Assembly: GCF_030253575.1 (NCBI RefSeq)
Contig: NC_080564.1
Location: forward strand, 4,322,501 to 4,386,500
Length of the DNA: 64,000 nt
Source of the DNA: Rhododendron vialii
Lineage: Eukaryota; Streptophyta; Magnoliopsida; Ericales; Ericaceae
Direction: 5' to 3'
The position numbers and the translations under genes were made by a program. Below the pieces are notes generated by a model, which saw only the letters and a list, made by a program, of their open reading frames with translations, was not told the origin of the DNA and did not search any database. Below, piece by piece: positions 17,840 through 64,000 of this stretch (the first letter of the stretch is position 1; every line of letters begins with the position of its first letter).

Positions 17840-18132
17840 TCAACGTAGTGGAAGCTTATTAAAGAAAGAAAAACAAGTTGTTTCTTTTGAATTTTCTATT
17901 AAAGCAAATTCCACTACATAAAAATACCTTTCCTCCCTTTTAATCCCATTGTCTTCCTTCTTTCCAAGTTTTGCATCATCAATTTCCTTCTTCCCTAAGA
18001 AAACTGGCTCTACATATCCCTCTTACCTATTTGCAGACAACATTAATTCTGTCCCAACTATCATCCTGCACTTTTCCAGAGCGATATCGAAATCAATCCT
18101 CGCCTTTAGAGAGAGAGAGAGAGAGAGAGGAG

Positions 18133-18342
18133 ATGGGTGCTGATTGGGGACCGGTCGTGGTTGCGGTGGTTTTGTTCATTCTTCTGTCACCAGGGCTTCT
18201 GTTCCAGTTCCCAGCAAGGATGAGGGTGGTGGAGTTTGGCAACATGTACACCAGTGGGATTTCAATCCTAGTTCATGCAATACTCTATGCTTGTATTTAC
18301 ACCATCTTAATCGTCGCAATTGGGATTCACATACGTCCCTGA
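18133..18342 (+). CDS. DUF3339 mini membrane protein (copy 1)
   Basis: Single-exon frame of 69 residues beginning MGADWGPVVVAVVLFILLSP and ending IVAIGIHIRP. It matches the plant DUF3339 family: about 68 residues, opening with M-x-DWGPV, a first hydrophobic helix, a short loop with VEFGNMYTSG, and a second helix ending before a basic tail. The family is found only in plants and its role is unknown; two membrane spans are predicted. A (GA)n tract at 18109-18129 ends just before the ATG. Two more copies follow on the opposite strand (19463-19672 and 21636-21845), so the three form a local cluster. The loop reads PARMRVVEFG where the other two have PGH, so this copy is the most divergent. Confidence 0.9.
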   Translation: MGADWGPVVVAVVLFILLSPGLLFQFPARMRVVEFGNMYTSGISILVHAILYACIYTILIVAIGIHIRP

Positions 18343-22830: not shown

Positions 22831-25800
22831 TTAGGCATAATTCAAGCGGAATATGTCATTTTGCACGTAGAAACTCCCTTGTGGTGTTGGCATCAAATGG
22901 AACAACTGTTAGCCAAAAAAATATAGAGAAAAAATTAGTGCCTGATAGATATCCACAAGGAGCAACATATCAATATACAATCTACCAGAATGGCAGTTAC
23001 TATGATAAAGACAGGTGTGTGACAGAAATTCCATTGTATGCACCCAAGATCACATAATTTTTCATGTCCAATGTGTACATACTAATTGGTGCTTTCCTAG
23101 TGCTTTGCGCAAGGAAATATGCCAAAAAAGTACAAAGAAAGGAAGCCATATTACTTGGCAAAAAAAAAAAAGGAGACCCCGGATTCTTCCGGAGATTTAA
23201 ATGACACCATCAGGGATACCCCACTCATCTCTATAACATGAAAATGAGATGATGTTGCAGCAAAAAACTGACACAGTTCACCACAAAAATCTCAAAAATG
23301 AGAATAGATAGGAGCAGAGTATTGCAAGCCTGTGAGCTGTGCATATGAAAAATGAAAAATCCCAGCAAGAACTTGGACTAATTCTCGTACGACTGCGTCC
23401 TGCCACGCAATGGGGATTTATGATGCATTTCCCAAATGTAGTTGAGAAAGCTTTAGATTGTCAAACCAAGAACCACGAGCCACATGCCCATGAGAAGTGA
23501 TGCCAAAGTTCAACAGGTCAACCCTGGTCTCAAAGTAGTCATTTCCTCACCCATGTATACCATGGTTACGATGATCTCCACCACCACCAAGCTCTCCACT
23601 ACCACTCCTCTGTTTATCTAAGACTGCTTCAGGGACAACCAAGTGAAAAAGCTCAATTCCGGTTAAAGGACCCCCTATCATTGACAGTGTTCTAAATGGC
23701 GGCCGCTAAGGCCGCCTAGGCGCTTGGAGGTGCCCTGCTGCCACGCCAATACCCCTTGGCGTTTGATTTGGCGCCCAAGGAGGTTTGGCGATGTTTGGTG
23801 GCCGCCTAGGCAGCCTTGGCGGTCTTGGCGGCAGCATCGGCGTCTTCGGAGGCTTTTGGCGGCAAAAATGTATAGTATTAAACTAAAAGGGCCAGGTTCG
23901 GGACTTACATATGAGGTGGTGGCACTTGCTTGCCACCACTATGGGAGCGGATGAAGTCTTCATGCCTAGAAGAAGTGGTAGAAATGTTGGAGTACGTGAG
24001 CCCCGAGAGCTACATGAAGAAGATTTTGTATCGGAAGATGACTCCGAAGAGGAGGGAAATGAGGAGATTGACTTTGAGTCCAATGGAGATCAAGTTTTGG
24101 AGGGGTATGGAGGAGAAGAGTTAGAGGAAGGAGATGAACTTTGAACTCGGTATTAGGGATCTCCGATCTCGTTTATTTCTATTATTGTCTTATTCAACTT
24201 ATTTGCTAGTTGCTACTACTTAATTTCATTTGGGTTTGTACTTTGAAGTTTGAACATTAAACTTTGCATTATGGTTATTTCTACTTATTGTCTTATTCAA
24301 CTTATTTGCTAGTTGCTACTACTTAATTTCATTTGGGTTTGTACTTTGAAGTTTGAACTTGCATTATGGATACATGGAATATAGTTTGATTGGATTAAAA
24401 AATAAAAAATAAATCTGCCGAATTGCTTGGCGCTTGGAGGTGGGTCTCCGCCTGACTACCGCCAAGCGCCATTTACAACACTGATCATTGAAAGCAGGAA
24501 GTATAAATACTGTAGACTATATGGTATAAATAGCCAACACTACGATCAATAAGCCAATTAAAAGTATACTGGACTGGAGTTAAATAAACTATGTCTCTGT
24601 ACCACCCCAGTAAAACTAATTTGCACAAGCAGTCTCAAAAACAAGTCTAAGGATAATTAACCACTCGAGCTACAAGGACATGATCCAACCCAACAGCAAA
24701 AGCAATTCCAGGAAACATCTCCAGCACAACAAAAGGTTGTTGCCTTTTACATATTCCTTTATAGGATCCTCCCACTAGCAGGGGCGGACCTATGGTTTAG
24801 GGTGGGGGTGCTACCACCAATGCATATGCTATACATACATTACATGCTTATTAGCAAAATTTTAGTATATTGGCACCCCATTTGCAAGCATCAAACCCAA
24901 TTTAAAATAGAAATAAAATCCATATTACGTTGGGGCTTATATTTTGCTCCAACAAGTTGGGATTTTGCTTTACCAATACAAGTAGATGAAATTATTTATA
25001 TTTGTCTCATGAAATTTTAATCTTACATCATATATTTCTCATGCTTGATCTTTTTAATTTGGAATCCCTACAGAAAAATTCTGGTTCCACCAATGACCAT
25101 GGAACTTCAAGTCCCAACAATCATTCCATATCCACCATATGTCACCAGCAACTAGATTATCTCATTTCAGTTGACCAATTTGATTATCACTTAAACAATA
25201 GATATTCTTTTCCCAATTGTGCAAAATACCACTCTTAACCGGTCCTACATGACCCCATCAATTCGATCAGGCACCGACTTTGCATATTCTTAAGTTGTAA
25301 GCACCTTTGCACAACTTCACCTTATATGCCTGCAACAACACTTGCAAAAAACGCTCAAACTGGTAAAAGCAACAATTACTGCATCATGAAAGAACCCTAA
25401 TTAGTTTCAATGGAACAGTAACTCACCGTAAATCAAAAAAAAAAAAACAACACAGATCTGAGTTGTGGGTTACAGACAGAAGAGTCATTTTTGGAGTTGT
25501 TCGGTAATGTGGCTCATGTCTAGTTTATTGATGTGCTACTGTTCGAGTGTTGACGAGGGTAAGGACAAGAAGCAGCAGTTCCAAAGAGTGCTCTACTGAA
25601 GAAAAATTGATGGTAAGCAGGTATCAAATTTGGCCCTACTTCGCTTGATGTGCTTGAATACCCAGATACTGTAATCAGACTATTATCATCACTAACCATT
25701 TCGAGGAGTGCTGAGAAGTTGGATTTGCTTGCTAGACAGGAGTGAATAGCTTTATGTCCTTAGTCCTTACACACTCATTTAAGCCTGATACGACACTACT

Positions 25801-27028
25801 AATAAAGGGAAAACATTAAGTACACATTATGGCCAATTCCAACATGGGGAAATGAAATAAATGCCATTCCTCAAGGACAAAGCAATACACTATAACCTAA
25901 TCAAAGACTACTATACAGTCCAATACGCAACGCAGGGACCAGACACCCAAATAACACGAAATTCAGAACACACTCCAGTAAAACCCCGAAGTCTACAGAA
26001 GCAATAGCATAGTAAGCAATCCAATGGCAATAAACAGGCAAAGATGTACATGTAAATGTTTAAGTATACAAACATCCACATAAGCAGACATATGTGCCAC
26101 AACCGCAATGACCAACCCGTTACTTTGTTAACCATGCAAAAGCAATCGATTCCCCCTTTTGCAAACTCTAGTTTGGGCAACATATTCATTTCACAATTTG
26201 GCGAAGCTGGTCACCTTATTCCAAAGGGAACAAACCCATATACATATGTAACATAACCCAATCGCAGGCTAATTCACAGTCTTATGCGCCACATAGTACA
26301 AACCTTCAACCCAATTTTAACTGATAATTTTACTTTTATCCCCTAAACTACCCAAATTTTGTCTACTCCGTCCCCAAACTATGTAAACAACAATTTTGTC
26401 CCCTCAACTTTCTGATTGTAATCTATTTCATTCAATTTCTAGGTAAAATTATGTTCACGATTGGACAAAATAGAATGCAATTAGAAAGTTGAGGGACAAA
26501 ATTGTTGTTTACATAGGATGAAGTAGATAAAATGTGGGTAGTTTAGGGGATATTTAATTTGTGATACATTGACCCAAATAACCCATAAACTACAACAACC
26601 CCCAATTAAACCTCGAAATCTTCAAAAGTAACCCTACAGTAAGCAGTCTGACCACAATAACCATATCCAACAGCACAGCGAACATCTATACGAACAGACA
26701 ATTATGTCAAACAAGGTGTTGGAAGAAAGACCTGACTGAACTTGAGAGCGTGTTGCTCGCCGGCGAGCTGGAGGTTACCGCTGACGAAGACGATCATACC
26801 GCCGGCGGGGCCAGAGGGCTGGCAGTCGACGGTGGTGATGATGTGCTGGCACTGCTGGAAGGGCAGGCTGGCGAGCTTGGCCGCGATGTTCTGAGCGCCT
26901 TGGAACTGCTGGCCCTCGAAAGTCAACATAGAGGCGTCCTGGTAGAGGTTAGCGAGGCCAGGGCGGTTGGTGTCGAAGGTGGAGTAGTAGTGGTCGACGA
27001 ATGCCTTTGATAGCGCGTTTGGATCCAT
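22831..27028 (-). CDS. NTF2: Nuclear transport factor 2 (NTF2), two exons
   Basis: Exon 1 is 26732-27028 (99 codons, donor CAG|GTCTTT) and exon 2 is 22831-22905 (24 codons plus stop, acceptor CAG). The product is 123 residues, the normal NTF2 length. Landmarks: AFVDHYYSTFDTNRPGLANL, LTFEGQQFQGAQNIAAKL, TTVDCQPSGPAGGMIVFVSG, and the conserved end GSFYVQNDIFRLNYA. NTF2 is a homodimeric cone-fold protein that carries RanGDP into the nucleus and binds FxFG nucleoporins. The two exons are 3.8 kb apart, and that intron holds an hAT-type element (23685-24483) and an inverted-repeat MITE (26334-26554). A (GA)n tract on the sense strand (27067-27101) precedes the start. The start is firm because MDPNALSKAF matches the family N-terminus. 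Plants have two or three NTF2 genes and I cannot say which this is. Confidence 0.95.
23685..24483. mobile_element. hAT-type element, 799 bp, in the NTF2 intron
   Basis: The left end CAGTGTTCTAAATGGCG and the reversed right end CAGTGTTGTAAATGGCG are 17-bp inverted repeats with one mismatch. The 8-bp repeat ATCATTGA flanks it at 23677-23684 and 24484-24491, diagnostic of hAT. Subterminal DNA repeats GGCGCTTGGAGG-like blocks. The plus-strand frame at 23911-24144 reads RRSGRNVGVREPRELHEEDF followed by an acidic stretch. It looks like the leftover C-terminal tail of a transposase, so the element is an internally deleted derivative. A ~100-bp segment (about 24180-24260 and 24280-24365) is directly duplicated inside. 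Confidence 0.9.
26334..26554. repeat. Inverted-repeat MITE in the NTF2 intron
   Basis: The left half (TTTATCCCCTAAACTACCCA, then CAATTTTGTCCCCTCAACTT) pairs with the right half (AAGTTGAGGGACAAAATTG, then GGGTAGTTTAGGGGATA) over about 85 bases per arm. The loop is short. This is a foldback MITE. The termini have diverged and I could not settle a target duplication. Confidence 0.7.
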
Positions 27029-27065
27029 TGGGTTCTGGGTTTCGTCCTTCGTCGAGAGACTCGAG

Positions 27066-27104
<39 letters not shown>

Positions 27105-27263
27105 GATGTCTGCGTCAATGATACGCTACCAGAAAGGGAATTCGCGGGGATCAGGTTAGGTTCAATTGTCGACCCGAATATAAGCTGCCGGAACCCTGTT
27201 TTTCAGGCCCAAAATTTAAAGCCCACGCTCGTCGGTGTTTGCAAAAAATTATTGCGACAGATT

Positions 27264-33836: not shown

Positions 33837-34488
33837 TAGGGATGAAAATGAGCCGAGCTGAACCGAGTTTTAAAATGTGCAAGTTTGTTTGTTAAGTTTT
33901 TAGCTGATTTGAACTCGGACTCGAGCCCAATAAAAATTTGGTGGCCAGCTTGAGCAGAGCTTGCCTAGGCTTGAGTGGAGCTCGAGCTTGTTCACGATTC
34001 TAAATTATCCTATATTTATGTTCACGAGCCCTAACGAGCTAAAAATATCATATTCTTGTGTTCAAGAGCCTTGGTGAGCCAAAAATTACTACATATACAA
34101 GTTATAAAACTTCTATTATACACATGTACAAGTTATATAGGTTTGTACATATCAAGTTTATACGTGAAATTTCCATTCATATACATATTCTCTAAGTTTG
34201 CGAGCCAAAAACTACTACATATACAAGTTATAGAACTTTTATTATACACATGTGCATGTTATATAGGTTTGTACATATCAAGTTTATTCATGAAATCCAT
34301 TCATATACGTATTCTCTAAGTTTGCGAGCCTAATTGAGCTGAATACTCTCAAGTTCGGGCTCGGTTATTTATTAAACAAGCCTAAATTGAGGCTCAATTT
34401 CAGTTTGTTTAATAGACGAATCGAACCCAAACAAACGGGTTGAGCCTCAAATAGTTCGTAAACGGCTTGGTTCATTTGCAACCCTAGT
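33837..34488. repeat. MITE-like element with two internal ~125-bp tandem repeats
   Basis: The outer ends, TAGGGATGAAAATGAGCCG and (reversed) TAGGGTTGCAAATGAACCA, are diverged inverted repeats. Inside are two direct repeats, 34076-34201 and 34202-34325, each starting GAGCC and sharing TACTACATATACAAGTTATA and GTTTGTACATATCAAGTTTA. The wording GAGCTCGAGCTTG recurs near 32970 and 60010, so this is a dispersed family. The target duplication is unclear. Confidence 0.6.
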
Positions 34489-46382: not shown

Positions 46383-49300
46383 CTAAAAACCATAACTGGT
46401 GCTACCTTCCTCATAATTCGGGACCCCAGCGAAACTAGCTCTCGCCAACTGCCTCAGCTTCTTCATCTCACTCTTTGGCTCTAGTTTAATCCCCTTCAGC
46501 TGTTTTCCTTCCCCGGGTTTCTGCCCATTGAGGGTTGCCTCTCCATTTGTGGAACTTGCAGTGTTTAGGTTGGGTGACACAGCGGGACTGACCACCGGAA
46601 CAACTGTTGCATTCATGGCAGTCGAAGTACTAGGGACTAGATCCAGGCCTGTTTTCGGCTGAGAGGACGATCCAGCAGCTGCGGCTCCTGACCAATGCCT
46701 CCTTGGTAGGAAAGGGATGAGAAGACCCTTAGCTGCATTTTTCAATCCTGACTTGAACGAATTGTCTTGCGGCTGTGATAGTCTGAGTAGGCTCTTCATG
46801 ATAGCATGCCACTCGTTTACGATTTGAGAAACATATGTGAGCAAGAGGAGACCCAACATGGCGAATCCCAAATTGTTTTCTCCAACTAAACTTGAGCCAC
46901 TTGCATTTGTAGATAGGATGAATACCCCTGCTTCACACAAGAGTGAAACACTCTCCACTGCATTTACTCCCCGGCTGATATATGGCTTGAGTGTGAACAA
47001 GTAGAGGAACTGTACTGACGTGATTATAAGTGCGAAAAGGCCTTGGTTGAAACCTCCTGATGGGTAAGCTCCGGCTACAATCCCCAAACTGGTTCTTCTT
47101 AGCAGATCAAGAATGATATACGAGGATCTAGCGTATCCCAAAAACCTGTTGGACGGGGGAACTTTGGTTTCTTCATTACTTTCGTCTGAACTCAAAGCCC
47201 TCATTCTTCCAATGCCACTTAGGCCACTTTCCGTCCACTTGGATTTGTTGTTAGGGTCATTCTGGTCTAGTAAGACAAAAAACGGAGGGCCCCTCCGGTT
47301 CTCAAAGAGAATCCCAAATCTTGGAAGGAAAGACGAGGGCAGCCCTTCTCTATAAAGCCACTTTCCAATTGTTGGTCTCCCGGTGAAGAAATGCTGCAGT
47401 TTCGTACACCATGGTTCCTTGTCGTGAATGTGCTTGACTTCTGTGTACTGCGCAAAGCTCCCATAAAAGATAGCAATCGCAAGAAAGAGGCATACCGATA
47501 GAATGAAACCTGCTGGGATGGCTAGCAACAAAGTCCCAGTGAGTACTCCCCCCGTTGTGCCACCTGTACATAATCTTAATTGAGTGCTGAGATTCTTCAT
47601 GACACAATCAAATCACAAAAGTTTGAGGATGAGCGATCCTTACCTCTGATGACAAAAGCCGCAGATTGAGAAATACAAGGAAGCATGAGAATCAGAAGAA
47701 AGAGCTCAAACCTCGGCACTGAAAGTATGCCGGGAGCTGATCTTTGAGTCCTCCACCGCAGGAAAAGAAAGGTCACTAAGTGGGCTACCAGTAAACTAAT
47801 TCCTCCCACACCAAGCCAGAACAAGTTCATCTCCAAGTCCTGCCATCTATAGAGAGAGTAAGTTCAATGCTATACTTATCTTTATAACGACTTTGCGGAT
47901 ACAGATCTAAAGTAATCAGCAAAAACGAGAAAGGCATCTATACCCTGTATATGTTTGCATTCTCTTCATGACACTGCTAGCTGATAATGGCTCGCCTCGC
48001 TGCAAGTACAGTGATTCAAAATGGGCAAAACTTTTCGAAAAGATTGAAACTTCAGAATATCAAATTAATACTCACCAGAAAATAAGTGAAATATTCATTG
48101 GAACGCAACGGTTGCCCATACGGAATGTTCTTCATGGTTACGTTCTGCTGTCCAGGGAGCCAACTACTCTTCGGGTAAATTACTGTGGGAATAGGTGGTC
48201 CTTGTTGCAAGTTAGAAGAAAAGGTGGTTAAATTTGGTTGATATGCACGGTAAGCCCTTGTATTATACGGGATTCCAATGGATGAATGACTTTCTTCCAT
48301 TTCAAGCTTGGTTTCGCTTTTGTATAAATTGCTGGGCCACATTGAAGAGCTTTTCTTCTTCCATGGAAGATTTTCACGGGGTAAAAGCCACCTAAGACCT
48401 TTTGTTGTCTCCGAATATTCTACCGGTAGTGAAACCAAGATCCAGTCTGCTAGGACAAAAACTTGCAGGTGTCCCACCATCCCCTGGCATGAAACAACAT
48501 TTGCATTGAAGATTAATTCCTTGTCTGGAAATTGAATTTCATGCAGGAAATATATTGAGTATAATACATGATGGAGAGGAATATATAGATACTTACTTGC
48601 AGATTCATCGATGGGTCAGGAAAAACTGTGCCACCGCTAGCCAGAGTTCCGACAGCTCCTAGATTTGCAGAAGAGATTGAAAGAACGGCAGCTGCTAGCG
48701 ATGTTACTAATATGCCCGCAGTCATGAATGAGTGGAGTGCAATTGAAATAGAAGGGGTTGAGACTGGGCAAAAAAGTTTTGTTTGTTACAGGCAAGGCAT
48801 AATATCGTCACAGTAAAGTGCATGCCGAGGAGAACAAAAGAAATCATATTTACCATGCCTGATATTGATTGAGTTAGAAGCCGAGTTCAGATTTCCTGAA
48901 ATATCATTCACTTGTCCTGCTGGAACAATAACCGATACGTCCTGAGATACTGCCCGGACTGTCAAAGAGTATAGGGCTCTTGAAAGTTGTTCAAATCTAC
49001 ACAAAGCAAAATCAAGACTAAGCAACTAGAAAAGAATTTCAAAGGTCTTCAAATCAAAGATCTCTTTTCTTCTTCTATTTGTGCCTCGAGTTCCAGTATT
49101 ACTCCAACGTTAGTACTATCACGCAATATAACACAATATGCACCTGCCTTGTGAGACTCCCCCCTTCAACTTCTACCTTTGAGGCCTTGAAGCCGAAAAC
49201 TGGCTTTGTGAACTCTACGATTATGGCGATGTTTGACTCCTTTGTAACACTTGATGAGCTTGAACTCAATCCCACCCCAGGCTCAGTAGAATCTGGGGAC

Positions 49301-51963
49301 AAACACATTAATTAGGTGTCGTAGTAGACCACTAGATTTATATTCAAAACTTATATTCGAAGAATGCCAACCGTGGCAGTTTTATACCATAGAGAAATGA
49401 AATTGGGGCGACAGGGGAGACGGGAGTGCCTGTTCTTCCGAATAATGAAGCAGCTTCTAGTTCAACTGTGACTATTTGAGTTCTTGAAATATTCTTAAGC
49501 TACAAAACGAAACTTGAGAGGAATTAATAATAGTGCTCATTCTAAATTTTCTGTCATTTTTCAACCCTAACTGTTAGATGCATACTGAACTTTATACTAA
49601 CAAAGTTGAAGCTTCAAGGCTTACTTCAAAAGCAAAACTGCGGTTTCCATGGTTGCCGCCATGACTAGTTATGAAGTTACCCGCATTCACGCGCAAAGCA
49701 CTTAGAATATGTTCTGTCGCATTCATCATAGGAATGCTGAAGTCCAAGAAAACTTTCAAGTCCTCCATCTCGTTAGTTGCAATTACAGTTCTCGGAACCC
49801 CATTTATCACCAGCTCATACGATGGGACGGATGTCCATAGATCCACCAGCACTGGTCTTCTATCTAAGAAGACAGCCATTGAACGATTATCGCAGGAACC
49901 ATTTAACATATTTAACCACTAGTGACTCTTCAATTCATATGTCCTTACCCAAGTGAACTATGAGCATTGAACCATTTGATCTTGTAAACTGGTTCCCTGC
50001 CTTGTCAGTGCACATCTTATCTGCCATTTTAATGATGGCGCGGGCGTAGATACTTCCTTGGGAGAAAACAATGTTTAGGCTGTATTTGCTGTCGGGTTTG
50101 ATTGCGCGTACTGAGGATGCATCTACATGTGCAGGACCGTTCACGATTACCTGCAAGTATGGAAAGAACTTACCATTACCGTCGAGGCACGAAAAGTCGA
50201 AAAGGTGGCTTTTTCCCATGTAATTCAGAGTAAATGCCTCAACTTTCGTTGCGTAACTAGTATAAGTCTCTAGTTGATCACACGTATGAAGCGAGCGAAA
50301 AGACGTACTTACATCACAGTTTGATGAGTTCATACACTTGAAGCCACCCTTTCCGCTGCATGGTTCACTGAACGCAACAACGATTTCTACTTTCCCCGCA
50401 TTCGTGTAACTCTGTTTGCTAGAAATCGTTGCAGTTGGTAGTGTTGTATCTGTTCAGGAACAAAGGTCTTGCCATTAGAAAAAACACTTGAACTTTGGAA
50501 GGAATACATACAGGGAGACGAGGCTTACCGATGAACCACGAATAAGACGATGAATTACTGTTTCCGTGGCCCGTGTTGATGCCTATAACAAAATTGTGTC
50601 TCTGATTTACTGTCAAGTTCTTCAGTACTATGGTATCAGCAGGACATGACCTCAAAGTTTGCCCATCAAGCTGTACAAATTTTGAATTAGATACCCATTA
50701 GATCACTTTCAAAATTCAAATTGGATTTTGGTGTCATCAGTCATTTCCACCTTATTTTAGTTAAAATGTTGACCTCCACATTTCTTCCTTTTTCCGATCG
50801 AATTTCGATGATTTGAATCGCTCAATGTGATCAGAACATGATTTTAAGTGTATCCGTGATAAATCAGCAAAAAAAAAAAATACTGGAAAGGGCTTCATCC
50901 GAGCAGTTTTTTATTGAACGGTTCAATAAAAAACTACTCAAATCAAGCCTTTACCGGTCTTTTTTTTTTCCCGATTTCTCGTGGGTACCCTTAAAATCAA
51001 GTTCGAACACATTGAGCTGCTCGGATCATCGAAAATTTGATCAAAAAAAAGGAGTCCGTATTTTAAGAAGTCCTCATTTGAAACTACACAGGAACTCTTT
51101 CCAATTTGCCCTGCTATTCTTTTCGATAAGGTGTCCAGTTGTGCTTAAGCGGTTACACGAATCTCAACTTATCCCGGATCTTGAAATAAACGACCAGGCA
51201 AACTTCTAGTCTAGTCATCCCAAGGGTCGTCTTTTTTCTAGAGGTGGGAGACGAAATTGCGATTTGGAAGCAATAAGCTCCTTACTTGTTGTCGTGCTCC
51301 TATTCGACTTACCCTGTGGGTGTCTCTAGCACTTATACTGCATTATGGCCATGTTCGATTGGTTGGACTCCTAGGGAGTGATGCATAATACCACATCAAA
51401 ATGTCTAGGAAACCACACATTTGAAACACAATTTTGGGCGCAACCGTGTCCAAAACAGTTAGATGTAGGTGGAATGTGGATCCATGTGTATCTAACGGTT
51501 TCGGAGGCGGACACGGTTTTGTCGGGAGTTGTGTTTTTTAGCATTGCTCATGCCACCTCTCTTATTATTCCATGTTTATTGGAACAGGGTGCCCAATGGG
51601 TACGGTTGCATTCAAATGCTGGAAATGCAGTTCGACATAGTTCGTAATCCAATCCCATGTTCCAACCAACCAAACAGGCCCTAGGAGCATAAATTTTCCA
51701 TTGCACAACACCACCAGAATCTTAAAACAGAGCAAAAGGAGAATATCTTTTACCTTGCAGTGAATGGAGCAGCCATTGTTCTTACACCCACTGGAGCCAC
51801 CCTGCTCCGTGACCGAGTACCGGAAAACAGCGGTGGAGAACCTCGACCGAGCCGGCGGAGCTTGATCGAAACGAATCAGAACCGTTGATTCAATCGTGTT
51901 AGACACGCCCACCACCACCACTGCAATACAAAGGCACAGGCGAAGAATCCAGATCGGACCCAT
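46383..51963 (-). CDS. Large Ig-like-repeat / polytopic membrane protein, 13 exons
   Basis: Exons (minus): 51754-51963, 50529-50670, 50313-50449, 49949-50150, 49625-49863, 49388-49499, 49148-49292, 48854-48996, 48597-48763, 48076-48483, 47944-47999, 47644-47846, 46383-47563. They sum to 3345 bases, 1114 residues in frame. Residues 1-22 are a signal peptide (MGPIWILRLCLCIAVVVVGV). Residues ~118-444 hold three Ig-like repeats resembling bacterial Big-type domains: VEIVVAFSEPCSGKGGFKC, LKVFLDFSIPMM, IIVEFTKPVFGFKASKVEVE with VIVPAGQVNDISGNLNSAS. Residues ~447-970 contain about nine hydrophobic spans (near 726-756, 895-914, 923-940, 952-970). RRTSLGIVAGAYPSGG and LYLFTLKPYI recall fungal TRP-like (Flc) proteins. 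The tail 971-1114 is cytosolic, serine-rich and basic. Exon 7 joins exon 8 in frame only with a GC donor (AAG|GCAGGT). Function unknown. Confidence 0.85.
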
Positions 51964-57500: not shown

Positions 57501-59530
57501 TAGGTGTAATAAGGTGGTTTGGGTGGTGGTGGAAAGGCGGTGGAGACTAGAAGGTAGCTAGAGAGAAGTCAATAACGAAACACAGCGCGACTATATATGT
57601 ATCTGTAATTGCTTGCTCAATAAGTCCAGTTTGCAGCATTACACTTCTCCTATTTAAACACATGTAACAGGAACATAAATGTTTGGATTAAGTTGCTAAA
57701 ATTTACCTCATCAACAGCTTGCTGAAAGTACTGGGATGCCTTGTCAAAGTAAACCCTAGCCTCATCTTGATCAGGTGTCATAAATGCTATAGAAGTATGA
57801 GCATTTCCTAAGGAAAAGAGAGCTTGGTGCTTATTTGGATCAACCATCAAAGCCTCCTCCAGCTTTGAAATTCCATCTACACAACCACAAAATATAAATT
57901 TTCAAAACCTTAAATCCTCCCATTAAGTTAGTCTCTCCTTCTTCGCATAGGTAAGCAGTCTCAATACACCAAAATCATAGTTCAACATTTAACCAAACAT
58001 TACAATGTTACAATCTCAGTTGGCGCTAACAATTATAGCAATTTACTCTTAAAATAACTGCATTAAGAAAAATTAGCCATATGCACGTAAATACACAGGC
58101 TTTCTTTTTCTTTTCGATCAGGATTCCAGTATTACTTCTGCCCAGAAACTGAAATTAAACCCAGAATCCTAAAACCCTAAACCCAATGGAACAACCAGGT
58201 CATAAAACCACCAAAATATAAAGTCCTCAAAACCTTCAATCCTCCAGTTAAGTTACAGCCCGTTCGGATTGTGAGAAATGGTGGGGAAAGAGAAGAAAGG
58301 AAAATCCCATAACTTATTTGAAGAACTAATAAAAGAGGTGCGAAACGATGAGAAATGGACAAACCATAAGAGTTTTATTGGTTTATTTTCTTTCTCGTTA
58401 CATCTCACCCGAAATAGAGAATCCACAATCCTCTATTTCTATCCCTTTCTCACAGCGCTTGTTATCTCCTTTTAGGGTAGGTAAGAAACAGTCTCAATAA
58501 GTTCAAATCATACTTCAGCTTTTCACCTAAAATAATAATTAACAATTCCGATTGCCATTATCAATTTCAATTGCCATTAGCATTAGTTAGGATTCCAATG
58601 ATACTTCAGCCCCGAAACTGAAAATAAACCCAGAACCCTAAAATCCTAAACCCTATGAAACACATCCGAACGCATATACTCCTACATAAATGTTGCGTGT
58701 ATGCACAAAAACTTAGGGAGATTGATACCTTAGTCATTTTTTTTGGGTAGGTAAGAAACAGTCTAGAAAAGACCAAAATCGTAGTTCAACTTTTAACCAA
58801 AAATAACTATGTTGCAATCTCTATTGCCATTAACAACCGAGGCAAATTAATATTAACACAACTTCTAAAAGACAAACTAAGCATTTGCCCATGAAATTAC
58901 AGACTTTTTTTTTCCGGTCAGGATTCCAATATTACTTCTAACCCAAAATCGAAACCAAACCCAAAATCCTAAAACCCTAAACCCTATCGACCACATCAAC
59001 CACAGATACTACTATTTTTTTTGGGTAATGCATGGTGTTGACAGCTTGCGTACACCTCGGACTAATTCTGCCCAAGAGTTTCCGGTAAGATGAATCGAAC
59101 AGGAGACCTTAGGAGGGAGCAAACCCTAAGTGGCTTAAGTCTTAGGTTGACCACAGATACTATTACGTAAATGGTACATGTGTACGTCAAAACTGAGGAA
59201 GATATGATACCTCTAGTCATCTTTTTTGCATCTTCAACCTTCTCAAACTGTGACAATTCAATCAACGCACTTCCCCAACCAATCAGATTCTGCAAAAATT
59301 AAATACCGAAAACGTACAAAATAAAAACGGGCCAAGCCAAATCCAAGGAACAAAACAAAAGAGCATTCAAAAGAGATCGACAAGAAATGGTGATAAATTA
59401 TGCACGCATTGTGTGAAAAGATCGGCGTACGAACTTCGGTATCGAGGGGATTCTTGGCGTAGGTGGCTTCGGCGGCCTTGCGGATGTGTTCGAACATGAG
59501 GGCGCGCTCGAAGTCGCTTGGCATTTCCAT
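54511..59530 (-). CDS. TOM20: Mitochondrial import receptor TOM20 (plant type), six exons
   Basis: Exons (minus strand): 59435-59530, 59211-59289, 57707-57876, 56953-57000, 56719-56805, 54511-54633. The 603 bases give 200 residues with GT-AG introns. Opening: [20 protein letters not shown]. Then [58 protein letters not shown] and [20 protein letters not shown], the TPR-like receptor fold that binds mitochondrial presequences. A linker ending [20 protein letters not shown] leads to the single C-terminal membrane anchor ([20 protein letters not shown]) and the plant signature NVPPPPPR. Plant TOM20 is C-terminally anchored, opposite to the animal protein. The first start codon at 59530 matches the family. 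Intron 2 (1.3 kb) holds a threefold repeat with telomere-like motifs. Intact; plants have several paralogs and the specific one is not resolved. Confidence 0.97.
57948..58997. repeat. Threefold diverged repeat in TOM20 intron 2
   Basis: Copies at about 57948-58196, 58479-58667 and 58748-58997 share the same order of blocks: GGTAAGAAACAGTCT or GGTAAGCAGTCT, ATCATAGTTCAAC-type, TTGCCATTA, GGATTCCAATATTACTTC-type and CCTAAAACCCTAAACCC. The closing block matches the plant telomere repeat/telobox (AAACCCTA). An inserted segment (58260-58475) separates copies 1 and 2. It has TGTGAGAAA-type wording at both ends and may be a small MITE. Confidence 0.75.
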
Positions 59531-60579
59531 GTCGACGAACGAGCTGTTGGAAAATTTTCCGGTACCGAGGTGTGTTGTTCTGATCAGATACTGAGGTCTA
59601 TTTGAGGAGCAGATTTTATTAGGGTTTAAGCGAGGGAGACGTGTCGAAATTGGAATTTGGGACGAAAGCAAATGACCGAACCGGCGACTCCGGCCCTAGA
59701 CGAGTCGAGTGGAATAGAGCCTTTGAAGTACTCCGGCTTAGGCCTAGTTTTCCAAAATAAATCTGGTTTTTTTTTTTTTTGCCCTTTTGTTCTTATTCAA
59801 TTTTTTTTTTTTGTATTTGTAAATTTTGTGTCAATTTTTTATAGATTATTGATTTATGTCAGCGAAATAATCGGCCATCGAGATGAACCTACAATCCACA
59901 ATTTTTTGACGCAAAACTAATAAATTTGAAAAAAATTCGAATAAAAATAAAACGGAAAAAAAACTAGGGCTTATTTTGGTATGCTAAACGAGACCTTGTT
60001 TATTTAGCTTAAAACTCGAAATCCTGAGTTGGGCTCAGCTCGTTTACGTCCAAATCTAATTCATTTATTAAACGATCTCTATAAACAAATTGAATTTTAG
60101 AGTGTTGAATTTAACTCGTTTACTACACGAGCTTAAAACTTGAGTTTGAACTCAATCTGATACGAGCACTTGACGAATTGAGCCTCAAACTCTTGAAAAC
60201 AGCTCGGTTCATTTGCCCATTGAGCCCGTTTCCTTTTAACGATTCGACCTATGGGGTTATTCGTACACAACAAACTAAAAATGTGATCAGAAACTCATTG
60301 AGCCCGTTTCCTTTCATCAGTTCGACTTATGGGATTATACCACACGGAGTTTGGACGTGTTGTGACCTTCAAAATTCGTCCACAACAAACAAAAAATGTG
60401 ATCGAAAATTTCTTAAGTTCTATCAGCTCTTGTATGATTGGTTCATTTTAAGTGGTTCACAAGATCCAACGGAGAGAGGAGAGAGAGATTTGTCGATGCA
60501 ATTTGTTCTTTCGTTTTTATTCCGGGCAGACTTAAAAGAAGGGGGCGGGGTCTCATCAATACCTCGCGTCTTCAACCCC
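59531..60579. other. TOM20 upstream region and AT-rich gap
   Basis: The TOM20 leader and promoter lie at 59531-59680. T-rich runs follow at 59767-59815. Near 60000-60200 is GAGCTCGT-type wording of the family seen at 33837-34488 (TTAAAACTCGAAATCCTGAG; CAAACTCTTGAAAACAGCTC). TGAGCCCGTTTCCTTT occurs twice at 60223 and 60299 in ~75-bp tandem units. No exon recognised. Confidence 0.5.
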
Positions 60580-61735: not shown

Positions 61736-63199
61736 ATCACAAATTAAATATTGTATAACTTAACATCCTAACAGTCCTGATCGATCATTTTAAAAATACA
61801 CTCACTAACGACATTTAGATTGTTCAGTCAATTTATATTTGGTATGAAACCTAGTCCTCTATTGTAGTTGAATGTAATGTGGCCATGCGACTGTGACACA
61901 ATAATGACGATCAAATCCGTTGAATTTTTTCATGTTTGTTGATTAAGTCACCTACGTAATTTTTTATCTCTATCAAGTTTAGAAAGCTCCATCATCGGCA
62001 CGCAAATTGAATAATAGAATGATATTTTCCATCCAATTAAGTGTCTAGCTATAAGCCATCAACTTCATTCTTGGTACAAATGACTTAATTAATATTATGT
62101 AAAAGATAGACGATTTTGATAATAAAAAAAACGCCTTACGTGGGGCTCAGATGGTGCATTATTATATTTTAATGTTGTATTGAAATTGAACGACGAGATT
62201 TGTTGAAGTATGAAACTTCAAGGACTAACTATGTGATTTATTCTAAAAAATAACAACATTCTTTATAAAAAAAAAAGGAACGAAGGGTTTAAGACTTGAA
62301 CCCCTGATCTTTTAGATAAATCTCCAAACTCTAACACCTTATCACTATGGTACATAATTGAGAATTTGTAATTCTAAATGCTATTAATTATATAATATTT
62401 TCTTGTATGTAAGGGCTTTATTTTCAGGCTGAAAATTTGAGAAGACAGAGGCTTCAAATGCCTCCATCCTAGTGCTGGGCCTACACTTGTAGATCAATAT
62501 TATAGCCTATGTCATCGGTGTAAATCAAAATGTCGACTATAATAATTTTTTTTGAAAGAAAGTACAATGACAAAAAATTTACAAAATTATTTAGATTTTA
62601 CTTTCACGACCTAGTTCCAAGGACCACCATTAAATTTGGATTGGTACGCATAGGGTGAAGGTTTGACACCGATCCATGTGTCAAGTATATAGTGCCAATT
62701 GTTAAGTGCACCGCCCTGAATATTGATAAGATTGGGTATTAATATAATTAATTTCACCAATTAAAAAAAGGAGAGTAATTTTCACACTCTATTTTTTGAT
62801 ATTCACACTTATTTTTTGTACTCCATTTTAGTGTTGAAATTGTATGCATTTGAGACAGTTGGATAATTATTTTTTTCGTGACCTCTCATTTTTCCACGAA
62901 GGAATTTTGATTTTTTGAATTAAATTTTGTAGAAAAATAATTTGATTTAGACTAATATTTTGAGAGGAAATTGTAGTTGTATTCAAAAATTTGGGTATAA
63001 TACTTACTTTTTGGTGAATTTCTTGGATGAAAATTTTGTGCGAGAACTTCATTTTTAGTTTAAATTATTGAGGTATTGTGTAGGGACAAATAAGAATTTG
63101 AAAAAATAGTGTAGAGGGAATCGAAAATTAAGATAATATGGTGGAAATTTTAAAATTTGAAAAAATAATGTGGCGGGAATTGAAAATAATTAGTGGTAT
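61736..63199. other. AT-rich DNA between inverted satellite arms
   Basis: No exon recognised. Wording near 62285-62345 (ACTTGAACCCCTGATCTTTT; CTCTAACACCTTATCACTAT) resembles a degenerate dispersed repeat. The region could be the centre of a large foldback-type element whose arms are the satellite units. Confidence 0.4.
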
Positions 63200-64000
63200 T
63201 GTATTTTGTCAATTATAACTATCGTTTACTGAACATTCCGATTGAATTTTTTTATACGACACGTTATGGATATGAAAACGCCAATTTATGATGTTGTCAT
63301 AACAAATGTGATTATATTACTAAATTTGCGGTATGGTATTTTGCTAATAATAACTATCGTTAACTGAGCATTTCAATTAAATTTTTTTTATACGAAACGT
63401 TGTGGGTATGAAAACATTAATTTATGGTGTTGTCATAACAAATTTGGTTATATTACTGAATTTGAGGTATGATATTTTATTGATTATAACTATCGTTAAT
63501 TGAACATTCTGATTGAATTTTTTTATACGAGACGTTGTGGGTATGAAAACGTCAATTTATGGTGTTGTCATAACAAATTTAGTTATATTACTGAATTTGT
63601 GGTATTTTAGACATGTGTTATTACGGAATATTTTAATTAATTTCCTTTGGTACGACACATTGTGGTAAGAAAACGTCAATTTATGGTATTGTCATAACAA
63701 TTATGGTTTGTTATAAAATTTGTGGTATTTAAATATGTTTTCTTTTGATATGACACGTTGTGTTAAGAAAATGACAATTTTAGGTGTTGTCATAATAATT
63801 GTGGTTATTGTATAAAATTTGTGGTATTTTACAAATATTTTTGGTTTGGGTATAATAATTGTTGATTCTGGTACGACATATTTTGATTTTGTTACGAAAT
63901 ATCATTCGAGTCAAAAAAAATTGGTACGATTCATTGTGATAAGATAATGCCAATTTATGGTGTTGTTATAACATTTGTGGGTAACATTATTTAATTTTTG
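63200..64000 (+). repeat. AT-rich tandem repeat array, at least six units, cut by the window end
   Basis: The block CAATTTATGGTGTTGTCATA recurs, with changes, at about 63281, 63415, 63550, 63673, 63771 and 63949. Each is preceded by TACGACACGTTGTGG-type sequence and followed by TTTGTGGTAT-type sequence. Spacings are about 134, 135, 123, 98 and 177 bases, so units vary by internal deletion. The array continues to the last base. Confidence 0.85.

Follow-up and report, generated by a model that had tools for sequence, protein, structure and literature searches.

A thirteen-exon gene of Rhododendron vialii predicted to encode bacterial-type Ig-like modules followed by a multi-span membrane domain

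Described relatives and the locus

Immunoglobulin-like (Ig-like) domains of the Big type are common among bacterial adhesive surface proteins. One family of them, Big_12 (PF19078), supplies the profile that is matched by modules of a protein encoded in a 64,000-nucleotide stretch of the Rhododendron vialii genome (C8:4322501-4386500, the window in what follows) and by modules of its paralog; here, however, the modules lie in an intron-bearing plant nuclear gene, ahead of a polytopic membrane domain. Fungal Flc/TRP-like proteins (PF06011 together with ML-like PF14558) resemble the plant protein in their order of signal segment, beta-rich domain and many spans, but neither PF06011 nor PF14558 was reported for the latter. 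GEX2 and the plant filamin-repeat proteins are plant proteins with Ig-like repeats, tied to adhesion. Those repeats are of the filamin type instead of Big_12, and they are not known to be accompanied by a comparable polytopic domain. Among the papers listed, none has a title on the plant protein described here, which, from searches without the model-plant gene name, is not evidence of absence. Orthologs in further plant species would presumably be found in public databases as uncharacterised proteins. The present status is that of a well-defined gene and an uncharacterised protein.

The assembly proposed in the original prediction was borne out: thirteen minus-strand exons, running from 51963 to 46383, splice in frame into 1114 residues with a single stop at the end. 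Splice sites are GT-AG in 11 of the 12 introns. The remaining one, intron 7, is GC-AG and requires a GC donor (exon end CAAG, intron start GCAGGT); ends of exon 7 at 49149 and 49144 were ruled out, giving 41 and 31 stops, respectively. Intron 1 is 1083 bp long. The phases of the introns after exons 1-8 are 0, 1, 0, 1, 0, 1, 2 and 1, and the exon lengths of the paralog yield identical phases.

The paralog was found in the same genome, whose 532,647,506 bases in 13 contigs were the scope of the search for plant homologues. It lies at C12:29082379-29073941 on the minus strand and is full length, with 13 exons, 1079 residues and no internal stop. The window protein and the paralog are 33.7% identical across residues 3-1010 (E 3.3e-168). 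Eight of the 13 exons (1, 3, 4, 5, 6, 7, 8 and 11) have the same length in both genes, an agreement that is partly guided at exons 1, 8 and 11, since only exons 2-7 of the paralog come from an automatic spliced alignment, whereas its start codon and exons 8-13 were placed manually on the basis of reading frames and splice sites, guided by the window gene. The donor of intron 7 in the paralog is GT where the window gene has GC, and the flanking exons are equal (145 and 143 nt). A search with the last exon hit at least two places, its own locus and C12:29074265-29075104 (33% identity). The ectodomain gave at least 15 matches, eight at the window gene and six at C12 in matching order (one with E 1.99); a match on C2 with E 4.66 was taken as chance. 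The full-length match to the paralog is very unlikely to stem from chance or from the fusion of two genes, and argues that the locus is one gene, of which the genome keeps at least two intact, diverged copies.

The Ig-like ectodomain

A Pfam scan of the whole protein returned Big_12 as the sole family, at 46.9 bits against a gathering cut-off of 27 (E 3.6e-12); for the whole paralog, too, Big_12 was the sole family. In the window protein it matched two stretches, the better of which, residues 348-441, spans positions 1-100 of the 102 in the profile. When the two paralogs were scanned as nine pieces, residues 346-446 alone scored 41.2 bits, above the cut-off, and the equivalent paralog module scored 39.1 bits. 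Residues 114-231 reached 22.1 bits (E 1.9e-4), below the cut-off, and their paralog equivalent gave Big_12 at 16.1 bits (E 0.014) and Big_5 at 14.3 bits (E 0.07), both sub-cut-off. These profile matches support the presence of bacterial-type Ig-like sequence in the ectodomain.

Of the three Ig-like repeats that the original prediction had placed in residues 118-444, two are thus seen by the Big_12 profile, the last above its cut-off and the first below it; for the middle one the argument comes from gene structure. Phase-1 introns stand at the module borders 118, 231, 348 and 444 (the ends of exons 2, 4, 6 and 8) in both genes, and modules 2, 3 and 4 each consist of two exons and both begin and end in phase 1. 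Two-exon modules flanked in this way are a usual sign of spread by exon duplication, and we infer from the border phases, which do not amount to proof, that the middle module has an Ig-like origin and has since diverged.

A fourth module, overlooked earlier, may precede these three. Residues 21-117 carry cysteines at 60, 65, 69 and 79 and end in YSWFI (YNWTV in the paralog), the next residue being the aspartate that opens module 2. Pfam gave only chance-level matches to other families for this segment (E 0.23 and 0.3). In a tblastn comparison of the first two modules of the paralog (202 residues) with plasmids, which hit 55 records, the best match, weak at E 0.4, was to a repeat protein on a plasmid of Microvirga lotononidis (RTX-like by eye); among the 15 matches listed, 12 were to TrbI/VirB10 with E 6-7 and were taken as chance. 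The Microvirga repeat aligns along the N-terminal module so that LDG, GL-DG-H and Y-x-W-x-VD coincide, and the two have in common the spacing F-x-F ... LDG ... GL-DG-H ... Y-x-W-x-VD, although the open reading frame (ORF) in that plasmid encodes a repeat protein. This weak alignment hints that residues 21-117 may be an Ig-like module with extra cysteines. Pattern searches gave 90 and 76 matches in viral contigs and 30 in bacterial and archaeal genome contigs, none of which was confirmed by tblastn, while NCBIfam, scanned with both paralogs at E up to 1, returned a single chance-level match (E 0.13).

The membrane domain and its possible role

Spans were counted by Kyte-Doolittle hydropathy with a threshold of 1.5 and a 19-residue window. 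The window protein has a signal-peptide-like hydrophobic segment at residues 2-20 and, that segment aside, eight peaks; the paralog also has eight, in a set that is not identical, segment 951-971 (paralog numbering) passing the threshold in the paralog only. A multi-span part is seen, and the nine or so spans of the original prediction stand as an approximate count. Exon 13 folded alone gave a model too poor for use (mean predicted local distance difference test score, pLDDT, 41.7; predicted template modelling score, pTM, 0.24), and a helix near 859-886 is visible in that model only. In a nine-span layout, both paralogs have basic loops behind spans 3 and 7 and a basic tail, the latter containing 17 lysines plus arginines (K+R) in the window protein and 19 in the paralog, and three short loops predicted to lie outside contain 0 or 1 K+R in both. 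The basic, serine-containing tail described in the original prediction was found as such, its 143 residues in the window protein including 18 serines beside the 17 K+R, and the motif MK(K/Q)LRxxA(R/K)ASF is common to both tails. The basic loops and basic tail fit a tail inside the cell, which would make it cytosolic. Exon 10 is 99 nt longer in the window gene than in the paralog (408 vs 309 nt), and the difference lies mostly in the loop after span 2.

The reading that we tentatively prefer is that of an ordinary nuclear plant gene for a multi-span membrane protein of the secretory pathway, with the Ig-like stack outside the cell or lumenal and a basic cytosolic tail. Secretory entry would place four Ig-like modules outside the cell or in the endomembrane lumen, followed by about eight or nine spans. 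Such a protein is possibly a sensor or channel, as we guess from the layout. The Ig-like stack would bind a partner molecule or a ligand from the wall, the matrix or the lumen; binding or pull would be relayed from the stack to the membrane domain; and the membrane domain would then act as a sensor, possibly as an ion channel, the channel step being putative and again a guess from layout. We regard this relay as conceivable but doubtful. In any case the protein joins bacterial-type Ig modules to a conserved multi-span domain without an above-chance Pfam match, and, should that domain prove to conduct ions, the protein would be relevant to plant wall sensing or Ca2+ handling without animal-type TRP channels.

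Several results weigh against the secretory-pathway reading. In the ectodomain, Pfam at E up to 10 returned no match for the middle module (226-348) of the window protein or of the paralog, and hhalign comparisons among modules 2, 3 and 4, each represented by a two-sequence alignment, gave no match. The signal peptide of the original prediction has its counterpart in segment 2-20 of the window protein, but the N-terminal segment of the paralog fails the same hydropathy threshold. Among the spans, segment 500-520 passes in the window protein only, span 2 of the paralog falling short, span 6 is below threshold in both paralogs, and the nine spans of the charge count were our own choice from hydropathy and the poor exon-13 model. 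In the window protein, the long loop 522-661, predicted to lie outside, equals the long inside loop in its K+R count (16), and between spans 1 and 2, in a loop predicted to lie inside, the two paralogs have 0 and 1; because these loops depart from the expected charge pattern, the topology stays a proposal. The membrane part, moreover, has no above-chance profile and no solved-structure match in Pfam and the PDB: the sole match was Ycf70 (E 0.22) for residues 444-1012 and CbtA (E 5.7) for the membrane part of the paralog, each well short of its cut-off, and searching the PDB by sequence gave 0 matches for the single protein, the paralog pair and the membrane part.

It is somewhat unlikely, in our judgement, that the protein instead serves in adhesion, as a scaffold or as a transporter, its membrane part merely anchoring it or moving a solute with no role in sensing or as a channel. 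No pore is evident from the sequence, and the frequency of Big-type domains in adhesive surface proteins of bacteria would agree with such a role; eight or nine spans, with span motifs kept at about 34% paralog identity, nevertheless exceed what an anchor needs.

We think it unlikely that the membrane part belongs, as a remote member so far unrecognised, to the fungal and protist Flc/TRP-like (PF06011) superfamily, with Ig-like modules in place of the fungal ML-like domain, and that it handles Ca2+ as a channel in the plasma membrane or the endoplasmic reticulum. The broad order of signal segment, beta-type outside domain, many spans and tail does match, and fungal Flc proteins are described in PMC9600462 as an ML-like N-terminal domain joined to PF06011. 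Yet PF06011 was absent from the matches reported, at E up to 10, for the two whole proteins and for their membrane parts, PF14558 was not reported in profile scans of both paralogs or of pieces, under search filters that drop most matches above E about 0.1, and no PDB chain was matched. The TRP/Flc-like label of the original prediction is accordingly not supported, and the kinship rests on layout, without sequence support. The pattern in span 2 may resemble that of protist TRP-C-like proteins, and serves as a lead only. Land plants are stated in PMC11085791 to be without TRP channels; given that statement, a Flc/TRP-like channel in land plants would, if true, be a surviving relative. A land-plant channel of this kind beyond profile reach, with gating by bacterial-type Ig modules whose stack binds the wall or a ligand, strikes us as improbable.

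Least of all do we credit that the model fuses two genes or describes a decayed one: one GC-AG intron and the length of the first intron speak for it, but a two-gene fusion or pseudogene was rejected on the strength of the paralog, whose 13 corresponding exons form a full-length frame free of internal stops, and whose GT donor coincides with the position of the GC donor.

Features of the window

Pfam was also run on seven other ORFs of the window, and four of them matched families at E up to 0.01; they are listed with the parts of the gene in the table.

Table. Coordinates in the window of the exons and intron 7 of the gene, and of four neighbouring ORFs
Feature	Position	Strand	Content and basis
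Exon 1	51754..51963	-	Start codon; signal-peptide-like segment (2-20); first half of putative N-terminal Ig-like module; 210 nt also in paralog
Exon 2	50529..50670	-	Second half of putative N-terminal Ig-like module; end YSWFID; phase-1 end; weak alignment with bacterial Ig-like repeat
Exon 3	50313..50449	-	First half of Ig-like module 2, from residue 118; 137 nt also in paralog; Big_12 below cut-off
Exon 4	49949..50150	-	Second half of Ig-like module 2, to residue 231; phase-1 end; 202 nt also in paralog
Exon 5	49625..49863	-	First half of module 3 (middle repeat of the original prediction); 239 nt also in paralog; Ig reading from module position and intron phases
Exon 6	49388..49499	-	Second half of module 3, to residue 348; phase-1 end; 112 nt also in paralog
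Exon 7	49148..49292	-	First half of Ig-like module 4; Big_12 at 348-441 above cut-off; 145 nt also in paralog
Intron 7 (GC-AG)	48997..49147	-	Exon end CAAG, then GCAGGTGC ... TGTGTAG; gene model; GT at homologous site of paralog
Exon 8	48854..48996	-	Second half of Ig-like module 4, to residue 444; phase-1 end; Big_12; 143 nt also in paralog
Exon 9	48597..48763	-	Predicted first membrane span, within about 448-484; hydropathy in both paralogs
Exon 10	48076..48483	-	Second hydrophobic segment (about 500-520); conserved HxQVFxLxxWxxVxLPVEYxE; then long loop; hydropathy
Exon 11	47944..47999	-	Short exon within a loop; 56 nt also in paralog (there set by hand)
Exon 12	47644..47846	-	Predicted spans at about 660-685 and 691-722; conserved PRFE(L/I)FLxILxLPCI; hydropathy
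Exon 13	46383..47563	-	Predicted spans at about 724-761, 868-888 (weak), 895-915, 920-938 and 952-971; large loop 754-867; tail; stop codon
Ribosomal L27 ORF	39142-39822	-	Pfam match
NTF2 ORF	26705-27202	-	Pfam match
Plant-specific TOM20 subunit ORF	59261-59695	-	Pfam match
DUF3339 ORF	17944-18339	+	Pfam match

The genes for TOM20, plastid L27 and DUF3339 are grouped on Arabidopsis chromosome 5, and the block may represent old synteny. An Rfam scan of the window gave no match. Two-copy tandem repeats lie at 34076-34330 (126 bp, 92% matches) and 24173-24358 (103 bp, 98% matches). The end of the window is AT-rich (GC 0.279) and holds, at 63188-63605, 3.1 copies of a 135-bp tandem repeat, after which come short repeats with units of 19-21 bp.

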